Assembly: GCA_937931785.1 (NCBI GenBank)
Contig: CALHAX010000021.1
Location: 1 to 64,000 of the forward strand
Length of the DNA: 64,000 nucleotides
From: an uncultured Hyphomicrobiaceae bacterium
Lineage (GTDB): Bacteria; Pseudomonadota; Alphaproteobacteria; Rhizobiales; CALHAX01
Direction: 5' to 3'
Below the pieces are notes generated by a model, which saw nothing but the letters and a program-made list of their open reading frames with translations, had not been told where the DNA came from and did no database searches. The position numbers and the translations under genes were made by a program. Shown piece by piece: positions 4,849-12,781 of this stretch. Position 1 is the stretch's first letter; every line of letters starts with the position of its first letter.

Positions 4849-5241
4849 CTATTTTTTACGAGTTTTCTTGGCCGTGTCCTGAGCCTTACCGGCCAATTTC
4901 GTCATCGCTTCGGTCATGGCCTGTGTTTGCTCAACATAGGCCTTCATCTGTGACTGGGCATACTCCTGCTGGATGCGCAATGCTTCCGTCATGTCGCCAG
5001 CCTGTGAAATGCGGGTGGCGAAGTCGAAACTTGCCTCCATGTTTTCTTCAGCGAAATCCAGGGCCTTGCGCTGCAGGCGATCCGTACCAGATGCAACAGG
5101 ACCGGTTGCCGTTGGCGTGAGAGCTTGCGCTTTCTTGGTCATATCCATGAAGCGCTCATAGGCCTCACGCGCCTGATCGATGTTGCGTTCAGCAATATCA
5201 CGCATACTTTGAGGAATCTCGAATCCGGACTTGTCTGCCAT
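4849..5241 (-). CDS. Phasin family protein
   Basis: A 130-aa helical protein starting MADKSGFEIP. The start at 5241 is preferred over an upstream in-frame ATG at 5253 because GGAGG (5247-5251) sits 5 nt before it. The family signature region is residues 9-40 (IPQSMRDIAERNIDQAREAYERF) and the tail is rich in K, T, A and Q, as in phasins. Phasins coat polyhydroxyalkanoate granules and control their size. No PHA synthase is in the window; a secreted depolymerase-like esterase lies at 12 kb but is not linked. Confidence 0.85.
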   Translation of the reverse strand: MADKSGFEIPQSMRDIAERNIDQAREAYERFMDMTKKAQALTPTATGPVASGTDRLQRKALDFAEENMEASFDFATRISQAGDMTEALRIQQEYAQSQMKAYVEQTQAMTEAMTKLAGKAQDTAKKTRKK

Positions 5242-5470
5242 TGGAACCTCCATTTTCCTGTATGATACGCAGGAGCAACATCACACGTCCAGCTTGCTGC
5301 GCGTTTACGACAGTTTCGAATTCTGCTGACGAATCCCACACATGCGTCGAAAAGTTGCTAACCAATAGCCGTGAGTTGTATGCGCTTTTTGATTGCACCA
5401 CCATGTCCAGACTGAGCAATGTGCGCCTGAAAACAACGGCTTGACGCTAGTATTCGAGATGTGACGCCCC

Positions 5471-7321: not shown

Positions 7322-8233
7322 ATGAGCAACTCCGGACGCATTGCAATTCTTGGCCTCGGCTCCATGGGACTTGGCATGGCACGCTCGGCATATGCTGCCG
7401 GGTTGGATATTATAGGCTATGATACATTCGCCGGATCACGAACCGCCTTCGCGGACGACGGTGGCAAGGTTTCTGACAATCTGCGAGATGCGGTCGCAGG
7501 CCGTGACATCATTATGTGCGTGGTGGTCAACGCAGAGCAGACAGAAAGTATCTTGTTCGGGGCAGACGGTATTGCCAAACATCTACCAAAGGGTGCCGTG
7601 TTTGCCGGGTGCAGCACGATGCCTCCAGCAACTGTGATTGATCTGGCGGCGCGTCTCTCGAAACATGACGTGCATTATCTTGATGCACCGATGAGCGGCG
7701 GGCCGGTTAAAGCAGGAGAAGGCGCGTTGACGTTCATGGCGTCGGGAACGCCGGAAGCGTTCGAAACGGCTCAACCTGCGATCGATGCGATGGCGGAAAA
7801 AATCTATCGACTGGGCGATGCAGCAGGGCAAGGTTCGTCCATGAAGATGATCAACCAGTTGCTCGCCGGTGTGCATATCGCGACGGCCTGTGAAGCCATG
7901 AGCCTTGCCGTGCGCATGGGGCTGGAGCCACGGGACGTTTACGACGTGATCACCAATGCAGCGGGTAATTCGTGGATGTTCGAGAACCGGGTGCCACACA
8001 TTCTGGATGGTGACTATTCGCCTAAAAGTGCCGTCAATATCTTCACCAAGGATCTGGGTATCGTCACGGACACAGGACGAGCAAATGATTTCCCGCTCCC
8101 GATGGCTAGCCAGGCCCTGCAGATGTTCACAATGGCGGCTTCAGCGGGCATGGGTGCTGATGATGATGCGTCGGTTGCGCGAGTCTATGCCGCGCTCAGC
8201 GGACTCTCATTGCCGGGCGCGAAGGACACATAA
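7322..8233 (+). CDS. 3-hydroxyisobutyrate dehydrogenase family oxidoreductase
   Basis: 303 aa, preceded by AAGGA 6 nt upstream of ATG. The Rossmann motif GLGSMG is at 11-16, the substrate-binding DAPMSGGP at 121-128 and the catalytic Lys175 in SSMKMINQL. The family includes tartronate-semialdehyde reductase and L-threonate dehydrogenase (LtnD). The next gene, 1 nt downstream, encodes a hydroxypyruvate-isomerase-like protein, a pairing typical of both glyoxylate/hydroxypyruvate and C4 tetronate catabolism. No tetronate kinase (OtnK) or aldolase (OtnC) is nearby, so the substrate stays open. Confidence 0.88.
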   Translation: MSNSGRIAILGLGSMGLGMARSAYAAGLDIIGYDTFAGSRTAFADDGGKVSDNLRDAVAGRDIIMCVVVNAEQTESILFGADGIAKHLPKGAVFAGCSTMPPATVIDLAARLSKHDVHYLDAPMSGGPVKAGEGALTFMASGTPEAFETAQPAIDAMAEKIYRLGDAAGQGSSMKMINQLLAGVHIATACEAMSLAVRMGLEPRDVYDVITNAAGNSWMFENRVPHILDGDYSPKSAVNIFTKDLGIVTDTGRANDFPLPMASQALQMFTMAASAGMGADDDASVARVYAALSGLSLPGAKDT

Positions 8234-8234
8234 C

Positions 8235-8996
8235 ATGCCACGCTTTGCCGCCAATCTGACGATGATGTTTACCGAGGTGCCATTTCTCGAACGCTTCAAG
8301 GCTGCTGCAGATGCGGGTTTCAGGGCTGTAGAGTGCATCTTCCTCTACGACCATGCGCCCGAAGCCATTGCCACGCTATTGCAGGACCACAATCTTGAAA
8401 TGGTGCTGATGAATTCGCCACATGGAGACTGGAACTCTGGCGAACGTGGTTTAGCGGCGCTCGAGGGACGAAAGAGCGACTTTCGCGCAGCGGTGGAACG
8501 AGTCTTCCCGCTTGCTGAAGCGACGGGATGCCGTCGGTATCATGTCATGCCGGGATTATGCGAGCCGAACGAGGATGCGCTGGATCGGTACAAGGCAAAT
8601 ATCCGCTGGGCCGGAGAACGGTTTGCAGAACATGGTCTGGAGGTTCTGCTTGAGCCAATCAACCGGCGTGACATACCCGGGTTCATGCTGCATGATTTCG
8701 GCCTTGCAGCACAAGTGATCAAAGACGTCGATCTTCCGAATGTGCGGTTACAGTTCGATGTCTATCATCGGCAGGTTCTTCACGGCGATATCGTGCGCGG
8801 CCTCGAAACGCTGATGCCACTGATCAGCCATGTTCAGATTGCGGACGTTCCGGAGCGCCATGAGCCTGGAACGGGCGAGATCAATTTCTCGCGCGTATTC
8901 GCGAGTCTGGACGAATTGGGTTATGATGGCTGGGTCGGGTGTGAATATCGACCGCAAGGTGCGACGAGAGATGGCCTGGGCTGGATACCTTCCTGA
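8235..8996 (+). CDS. Hydroxypyruvate isomerase / 2-oxo-tetronate isomerase-like protein
   Basis: 253 aa, a TIM-barrel sugar-isomerase fold. The likely ATG at 8235 is 1 nt after the upstream stop. The paired catalytic Glu of the Hyi family are present: Glu140 in LLEPINRRD and Glu237 in CEYRP, with metal or substrate residues around QFDVYHRQ (173-180) and HVQIADVP (199-206). It should interconvert a 2-oxo acid with its semialdehyde and feed or receive substrate from the co-transcribed dehydrogenase. A longer in-frame reading from 7956 overlaps the previous gene and is rejected. Confidence 0.85.
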   Translation: MPRFAANLTMMFTEVPFLERFKAAADAGFRAVECIFLYDHAPEAIATLLQDHNLEMVLMNSPHGDWNSGERGLAALEGRKSDFRAAVERVFPLAEATGCRRYHVMPGLCEPNEDALDRYKANIRWAGERFAEHGLEVLLEPINRRDIPGFMLHDFGLAAQVIKDVDLPNVRLQFDVYHRQVLHGDIVRGLETLMPLISHVQIADVPERHEPGTGEINFSRVFASLDELGYDGWVGCEYRPQGATRDGLGWIPS

Positions 8997-9095
8997 GCAT
9001 ATTGCGCACATTGCTCTGGTGCGTCCAATGACGGACATACCGCCGCGTTATTTTGAACGGCCAACAGTCGGTTCGACGACACCAAGGAGATCACT

Positions 9096-9377
9096 ATGCG
9101 CCACATGATGAAAACCATGCTCCTTCTAACGCTCGTGGCAAGTTTTGCGCCCCACGTTCTGGCGAAGAGCGCCGTGCACATCGACCGTCAATGTTATCGC
9201 TACAGTAATTTCTGCGGGGCTAAGCATGACACTCAACGTGCAACAAAGGTCTACAAAGCATCAAAGGCGACAGCCAAAGCATACAAGTCTCAGAAATCTG
9301 TGGTGGCACACCCCGCTTACAGGGATTCTGAACCGTTCATCGAGCGGCAGTGCACGCGTTATGGGCATTTCTGCTGA
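9096..9377 (+). CDS. Small secreted protein with duplicated RQCxRYxxFC motif
   Basis: 93 aa, ATG preceded by AAGGAG. Residues 1-23 form a signal peptide (MKTMLLLTLVASF core, likely cut after VLA). The mature part has the motif IDRQCYRYSNFC at 29-40 and again IERQCTRYGHFC at 82-93, which are the last residues of the protein. A Lys/Ala/Tyr-rich linker (KVYKASKATAKAYKSQK) separates them. Four Cys suggest two disulfides or a metal or heme site in the periplasm. I do not recognise a family. A second secreted-protein gene follows 25 nt later. Confidence 0.75.
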   Translation: MRHMMKTMLLLTLVASFAPHVLAKSAVHIDRQCYRYSNFCGAKHDTQRATKVYKASKATAKAYKSQKSVVAHPAYRDSEPFIERQCTRYGHFC

Positions 9378-9402: not shown

Positions 9403-10032
9403 ATGATGAAAAATTTCAGATACTTGCGGAGCGGCTTACTCCTCTGCTGTCTCTTCTCTGGCCCCGTGATCGCTGCTGATTATCCCTATACCGGCGCCTA
9501 TACCATTGGGGATAAAACTCCTGACAGTGCGCGATGGCGCAAGGCCGCATGTCTCACGCATTTTCTCACACAGACAGCGAGTGGAAAATATGCGCTTTTT
9601 CATCTTGACCCGCGCGCTTTGATGCAACTGAACGAACTTCGATATGTTGTCTACGAAACAGGTCAGTGTACCCATAACTCCAAAGATAATATCGATTCCT
9701 GTGAGGTGCACTACAGCTACCGTAACGCCCTTGAACCCTATTTTATCCGGTACGAAAACCGCAGGTTCAATGACACACGGATCGTAATAGGTGAAAGTCG
9801 TGCCGCGCTGTCGCCACTCAATACGCAGAGATTCGGATCGACGTCCCTGCTACAGGTCAAGTGCCCGCTTACTGTCAAACAGCTTGCGCCATTTATCACG
9901 CGCAAGCGTACCACTTACCCCAAAGCCGACGTGCAGATTCTGACCGGCCTTTTTGGCCTCGCACCGCTGCTTGAGTTTCACAAGCGTGTCCGCGCCATTC
10001 TTGCCAAGCAGGGCTTGCAGGATACGGAATAA
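9403..10032 (+). CDS. Secreted protein of unknown function with four Cys in the mature part
   Basis: 209 aa from ATG 9403 (an adjacent ATG at 9406 is equally possible). The N-terminus is a signal peptide (basic start, LLLCCLF core, cut near VIAAD). The same frame continues upstream into the previous gene, but the signal peptide fixes this start. The mature part has Cys in KAACLT, GQCTHN, DSCEVH and QVKCPL, enough for two disulfides. No domain recognised. Its stop abuts the stop of the convergent permease gene with no gap. The shared signal peptides and Cys content with the upstream gene suggest a functional pair (inference). Confidence 0.7.
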   Translation: MMKNFRYLRSGLLLCCLFSGPVIAADYPYTGAYTIGDKTPDSARWRKAACLTHFLTQTASGKYALFHLDPRALMQLNELRYVVYETGQCTHNSKDNIDSCEVHYSYRNALEPYFIRYENRRFNDTRIVIGESRAALSPLNTQRFGSTSLLQVKCPLTVKQLAPFITRKRTTYPKADVQILTGLFGLAPLLEFHKRVRAILAKQGLQDTE

Positions 10033-11953: not shown

Positions 11954-12781
11954 TCACTCAACCTCAAACCACTCAAATACACGATTGTCCCAGCCGCGTG
12001 GCATCTCATGCCCTCGGGGGTGCAGACAGAACTCGATATCCTTGCCACTCTTGCATGTTGTCCACTGGCGGCATTGATAGCGGCCCTTCGTCGTGTATCC
12101 CGTCGGATTGCTGCGACACCCGTTTGTCTTGCGCAGTGTCGACAGCGCTTCGAAGACATCGCCCTGGTGCCAGTCACGGATGCCACGCCCTTCGAGCGGA
12201 ACCTGTGCATCAGCAAAACCATGAATATGCAACAAGCGGAACGGGCCTGCCGGGCAGCGACCCTCTGGCACAGGACGGCGCAAACCGCCAGCAACCGGGG
12301 CGTAAGCGGTGAACGTGTCGAACGTGTAACATGCAAGATGCCACGCCATAGAGCCGCCGGACGAGAAACCGGTGACCAGAATTTTCTTCTCATTCAATGC
12401 AACACGCTGGCGAACGGCGTTCATCACTTCGCTGGTAAATGCAACATCATCACGACGCCCCTTTGCCATCCTGTTCGCGGGCCAACCAAGCGCGGTGCGG
12501 CCACTGCCTGCCGTCCCGTTTGGTGCGATCATTACGTAGCCCCGTCCGGTAATCTTGCGTAAGAGCCCCTTATTCCGTACGGCATTGCGGCCGGATGAAT
12601 TGTGACCATGAAAAAAAACCACAGCGGGAAGTGGCGAACGTCCATCCCATTCATCCGGGAAAGCGAGGTGATACGTGCCGCTGGCTGTCTTGCAAGGGGC
12701 ATCGGCGCCGCACGGGCGATCAATAGCGTGCGCCGTCGCCACCAAGCAGATCATCCACGCGATGCAAGCCATTATCCTCAT
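11954..12781 (-). CDS. Secreted PHB-depolymerase-like esterase (LpqC family)
   Basis: 275 aa with a signal peptide (1-19). The alpha/beta-hydrolase core has the oxyanion segment VVFFHGHNSSG (54-64), the nucleophile motif GFSSGG (138-143, Ser140), an acidic region near HGFADAQVP and the C-terminal His in HPRGHEMP. The mature protein has several Cys (CGADAPC and CRQWTTC-type pairs), consistent with an exported, disulfide-stabilised enzyme of the CE1/feruloyl-esterase/PHB-depolymerase group. Substrate could be a polyester or an acetylated or feruloylated polymer. The gene is divergent from the PhyH gene. Confidence 0.82.
   Translation of the reverse strand: MRIMACIAWMICLVATAHAIDRPCGADAPCKTASGTYHLAFPDEWDGRSPLPAVVFFHGHNSSGRNAVRNKGLLRKITGRGYVMIAPNGTAGSGRTALGWPANRMAKGRRDDVAFTSEVMNAVRQRVALNEKKILVTGFSSGGSMAWHLACYTFDTFTAYAPVAGGLRRPVPEGRCPAGPFRLLHIHGFADAQVPLEGRGIRDWHQGDVFEALSTLRKTNGCRSNPTGYTTKGRYQCRQWTTCKSGKDIEFCLHPRGHEMPRGWDNRVFEWFEVE

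Follow-up and report, generated by a model that had tools for sequence, protein, structure and literature searches.

A two-cysteine motif at the C-terminus of apparently exported caspase-domain proteins occurs twice in a 93-residue protein of a Rhizobiales bacterium

Some exported bacterial proteins are sorted or anchored by tags at their C-terminus, such as LPXTG, PEP-CTERM and MYXO-CTERM. Here we describe a two-cysteine tag that resembles them in being short, conserved and placed at the very end of the chain, preceded by a low-complexity linker and carried by otherwise unrelated, apparently exported proteins. It differs from them in having a pair of cysteines, in lacking a transmembrane helix, a basic end cluster and a known processing enzyme, and in occurring on at most two proteins per genome. 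No hydrophobic helix follows the tag, which itself forms the end of the small protein at the centre of this study, P0001, and of two large caspase-domain proteins.

The large tagged proteins fall among the exported bacterial orthocaspases (Peptidase_C14, PF00656), sharing with them the C14 domain, the His-Cys dyad, a PG_binding_1-like region and a basic tail. P0001, unlike exported orthocaspases, has no protease domain, the caspase p20 domain being absent according to Pfam and NCBIfam; all that P0001 has in common with the large proteins is the tag at the end and a linker of similar composition. A further likeness is to the BA14K-like proteins (PF07886), which are small, are exported by rhizobia and have Cys and Arg-Tyr close to their C-terminal end. 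P0001 has the same residues there, but matches neither this profile nor any other Pfam family up to E = 10.

The P0001 gene and its surroundings

P0001 is encoded in the window, which is the whole stretch of 64,000 nucleotides analysed here, from an uncultured Hyphomicrobiaceae bacterium (Table 1). The open reading frame translates as MRHMMKTMLLLTLVASFAPHVLAKSAVHIDRQCYRYSNFCGAKHDTQRATKVYKASKATAKAYKSQKSVVAHPAYRDSEPFIERQCTRYGHFC* and is a credible gene, because it is preceded by an AAGGAG site, its third-position GC (0.60) is similar to that of neighbouring genes, and the codon-preference score of the annotated frame (+0.01) is the best of six, with the other five at -0.20 to -0.42. From its translation, P0001 looks like a signal peptide followed by two tags, the second of them C-terminal, with a basic Lys/Tyr/Ala linker in between; the signal peptide, the two motif copies and the spacer that a sequence-only reading had described all match this translation. 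Signal peptides of all proteins in this study were called by eye. The mature protein has four cysteines, every one of them inside the tag copies, and four histidines. A single-sequence fold prediction was uninformative, its mean pLDDT of 54.6 being too poor to interpret.

Table 1 Features of the P0001 locus, with positions in the window.
Feature	Position	Strand	Basis or remark
P0001, 93-aa protein, apparently exported, basic; mature form ~70 aa, pI 9.7	9096..9377	+	sequence, composition
Shine-Dalgarno sequence AAGGAG	9084..9089	+	sequence; six bases 5' of the P0001 ATG
Apparent signal peptide (residues 1-23; VLA precedes the cleavage site)	9096..9164	+	by eye
Tag copy 1, IDRQCYRYSNFC (I-D-RQCYRYSNFC), residues 29-40	9180..9215	+	sequence, motif search
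Linker rich in Lys, Tyr and Ala, residues 41-81; contains two Y[KRS][AS]xK units	9216..9338	+	sequence, shuffle test
Tag copy 2, IERQCTRYGHFC (I-E-RQCTRYGHFC), residues 82-93, exact C-terminus, stop codon next	9339..9374	+	sequence, motif search
P0002, 209-aa secreted protein of unknown family (no match in Pfam or NCBIfam)	9403..10032	+	25 bp downstream of P0001
L-threonate dehydrogenase gene	7322-8233	+	upstream of P0001
2-oxo-tetronate isomerase gene	8235-8996	+	directly after the L-threonate dehydrogenase gene, just upstream of P0001
Phasin-like gene	4849-5253	-	in the window
Polyhydroxyalkanoate-depolymerase-like esterase gene	11954-12781	-	<7 kb from the phasin-like gene

As a whole protein, P0001 is an orphan in our sequence searches. 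Querying its own genome returned only P0001 itself, and no credible whole-protein homologue was found in 397 genomes of the order, among which the P0001 genome is the sole representative of its family, in a collection of 84,980 species, or among plasmids and phages; the record collections searched may omit genomes very close to that of P0001. The nine weak matches of the order that were inspected (E 0.003 to 0.07) look wrong-frame or compositional. Family libraries including Pfam and NCBIfam gave no match, in agreement with the sequence-only reading, which had recognised no family, and a phmmer search of the PDB with P0001 gave matches at E 0.6 only.

The downstream gene, P0002, had been singled out as a neighbour whose conservation might accompany that of P0001. 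Its homologues sit in genomes that do not have the tag, which rules it out as a conserved partner: the pairing of the two genes is not conserved. Weak homologues of P0002 are found in a few genomes from other families of the order, sharing a YP[YF]xG start and a cysteine pattern. We found no promoter or terminator patterns near P0001. A RiPP-type reading of P0001 was also set aside, as it shows no such motif and no modifying enzyme is encoded among the neighbours examined.

Occurrence of the tag on caspase-domain proteins

A degenerate-codon search for RQCxRYxxFC across the 397 order genomes produced four matches in all. Two are the copies in P0001. The third lies elsewhere in the P0001 genome, on a different contig, and the fourth in a genome from a second family; these last two each form the exact C-terminus of a large caspase-domain protein. 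A stop codon directly follows the tag in three of the four copies, copy 1 of P0001 being internal. The reversed pattern, run as a control on the same 397 genomes, matched three times, with 0 matches in the two tagged genomes.

The caspase-domain proteins have 698 and 656 residues, each with an apparent signal peptide. In both, Peptidase_C14 scores above its gathering cut-off (44.8 and 47.7 bits vs 21.4), the His-Cys dyad motifs GHG and ESCFSG are present, the middle region contains cysteines, and a PG_binding_1-like region falls slightly under the Pfam cut-off. A Lys/Arg-rich linker or tail of about 95-110 residues stands directly before the tag. The pair is 39-44% identical, with 44% across the caspase part; the linkers are unequal in length and sequence and barely alignable, and the last ten residues (RQCARYGNFC vs RQCNRYGNFC) agree at 9/10 positions. 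The tag is absent from the other C14 homologues of the order that were inspected, and the two tagged genes have no gene neighbours in common. The tagged caspase-domain gene of the P0001 genome has as its neighbour a gene of the animal-haem-peroxidase family (L071, 6869-9076, minus strand; PF03098, E 2.4e-13). The other tagged genome also encodes a second caspase-domain paralogue (L145, contig C7 of G038), a 922-codon open frame on the minus strand, whose C-terminus, NCSEAITTSSPWPGC, has Cys as its last residue and a similar basic linker before it, with a tail unlike the tag.

R, Q, R, Y and F as well as both cysteines are identical in all four copies. Together, these comparisons show, at the level of sequence, that [I/L]-x-RQCxRY[G/S][N/H]FC is a short peptide tag ending an apparently exported caspase-domain protein in two genomes of different families, where a variable basic linker precedes it. 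The tandem arrangement, which led the sequence-only reading to suggest a bivalent binding protein, is the exception: outside P0001 the unit is single and C-terminal on the caspase-domain protein. The repeat within P0001 exceeds chance, as judged from the protein sequences, the independent evidence being that the same motif ends two caspase-domain proteins. At the seven invariant codons, the two P0001 copies differ at none of the 14 first and second positions and at five of the seven third positions, and are therefore not a recent DNA duplication. Across all tag copies compared, first and second positions of these codons likewise agree and third positions differ at up to 5/7, although, the codons having been chosen for being conserved, this comparison is not independent proof of selection.

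Absence of homologues, which would refute the sequence-only reading, thus holds for P0001 as a whole and fails for the motif, which recurs; nor are the relatives single-copy proteins devoid of conserved cysteines, as both cysteines are kept in the single-copy proteins. The tag is nevertheless rare in our searches, at least in its strict form, because strict matches in wider collections prove to be chance and relaxed searches added nothing convincing. In the collection of 84,980 species, 14 strict matches end in TAA or TGA, and all have at most 42 open codons before the motif, several being interrupted by stops; six strict viral matches, again with at most 42 open codons 5', were rejected likewise. 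A relaxed class-wide pattern gave 25 further matches, with the reversed control matching at least as often; the longest of these relaxed matches ends 77 open codons and has no signal peptide. The searches that omitted RQ covered 385 genomes of the class and 22 of the order. In two species of one genus, CVRYPKFC ends a 19-residue open stretch (L074, L075), probably by chance. Relaxed patterns revealed no further convincing tagged protein in either tagged genome, and motif searches of the other tagged genome found neither a second tagged protein nor a P0001-like one. The tagged genomes therefore number only two, and the case for conservation comprises one homologue pair and P0001. None of four fragments of the tag sequence was found in the literature searched.

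Possible roles of the tag and of P0001

The tag is probably a CX6C disulfide loop. Apart from the catalytic one, the exported caspase-domain proteins contain 8 and 10 cysteines, and the number in P0001 is also even; with two cysteines in each tag, this makes plausible the disulfide part of an earlier proposal that the two Cys pairs form disulfides or bind metal or heme.

We tentatively favour, at somewhat short of even confidence, a model in which the tag docks the caspase-domain protein and P0001, probably derived from its tail, competes for the same partner or bridges it. The two cysteines would close, under the oxidising conditions of the periplasm, an eight-residue CX6C loop, which would present Arg, Tyr and Phe and so would dock its protein on a partner in the envelope. 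P0001, which probably arose from the tail of a caspase-domain protein, would then occupy or bridge that partner, acting as a competitor or a two-headed adaptor, and would tune where or when the caspase-domain protein acts. We found no docking partner of the tag. P0001 is not needed for the tag to function, because only one tagged protein is seen in the other tagged genome. The different ending of the second caspase-domain paralogue in that genome also counts against the model.

The origin of P0001 was addressed by aligning mature P0001 with the caspase-domain tail. With the tag included, the alignment beats 5,000 of 5,000 shuffles; with the tag removed, leaving the P0001 linker alone, 2,540 of 5,000 shuffles equal it. 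Descent of P0001 from this tail is unproven by sequence comparison, because its linker, once the tag is taken away, resembles the tail no more than shuffles do. Y[KRS][AS]xK units are enriched over shuffles in both the P0001 linker and the caspase-domain tail, two units being reached by 48 of 100,000 shuffles for a pattern that was picked after the sequences had been viewed.

An unlikely alternative to docking makes the tag a regulatory propeptide, which the caspase-domain protein would release by cutting itself after Arg or Lys in the basic linker, with P0001 as a substrate or inhibitor mimic. Orthocaspases are described as cutting after positively charged residues (PMC6426788), Lys/Arg-rich linkers directly precede the tag in the caspase-domain proteins, and P0001 has the same layout of basic linker and tag. 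However, the retention of 9/10 tag residues while the linker drifts would go unexplained unless the tag binds something, nothing like P0001 is encoded in the other tagged genome, and the protease activity itself is predicted from sequence. Equally doubtful is the idea of a structural clip, in which a C-terminal disulfide shields exported proteins whose tails are long and disordered from carboxypeptidases and no partner is involved. This would account for the two cysteines per copy and for the three of four copies that end a protein after a low-complexity basic linker, but a clip requires only the cysteines, yet five further residues are invariant, and copy 1 of P0001 is internal.

We consider it very improbable that P0001 binds metal or heme at two sites, the other half of the earlier proposal: although its mature form of 70 residues holds four Cys and four His, it has no CXXCH (the cysteines being spaced CX6C), no recognised metal-site pattern and no family match, no metal-handling gene lies among the neighbours examined, and the tags of both caspase-domain proteins are devoid of His. 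Least credible is a chance resemblance with P0001 as an unrelated orphan, for while only two other proteins bear the tag and wide scans do yield chance DNA matches, rough residue frequencies predict only ~3e-8 such C-termini per genome of this size, and the tagged caspase-domain protein of the P0001 genome has a homologue in another family with the same terminal tag.

Returning to the docking model, its broadest form would give exported proteins a new kind of C-terminal address, a disulfide loop, and would make P0001 a small, dedicated two-tag protein bridging or titrating the receptor of a periplasmic caspase-like protease; we put this forward as a speculative possibility that is more probably wrong than right. 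We found nothing that settles the role of exported bacterial caspase homologues, and a conserved tag common to one such homologue and a tiny two-tag protein offers a handle for finding its partner and its regulation. Should the tag prove to be a docking signal, exported proteins would have a short C-terminal address of a kind as yet undescribed.
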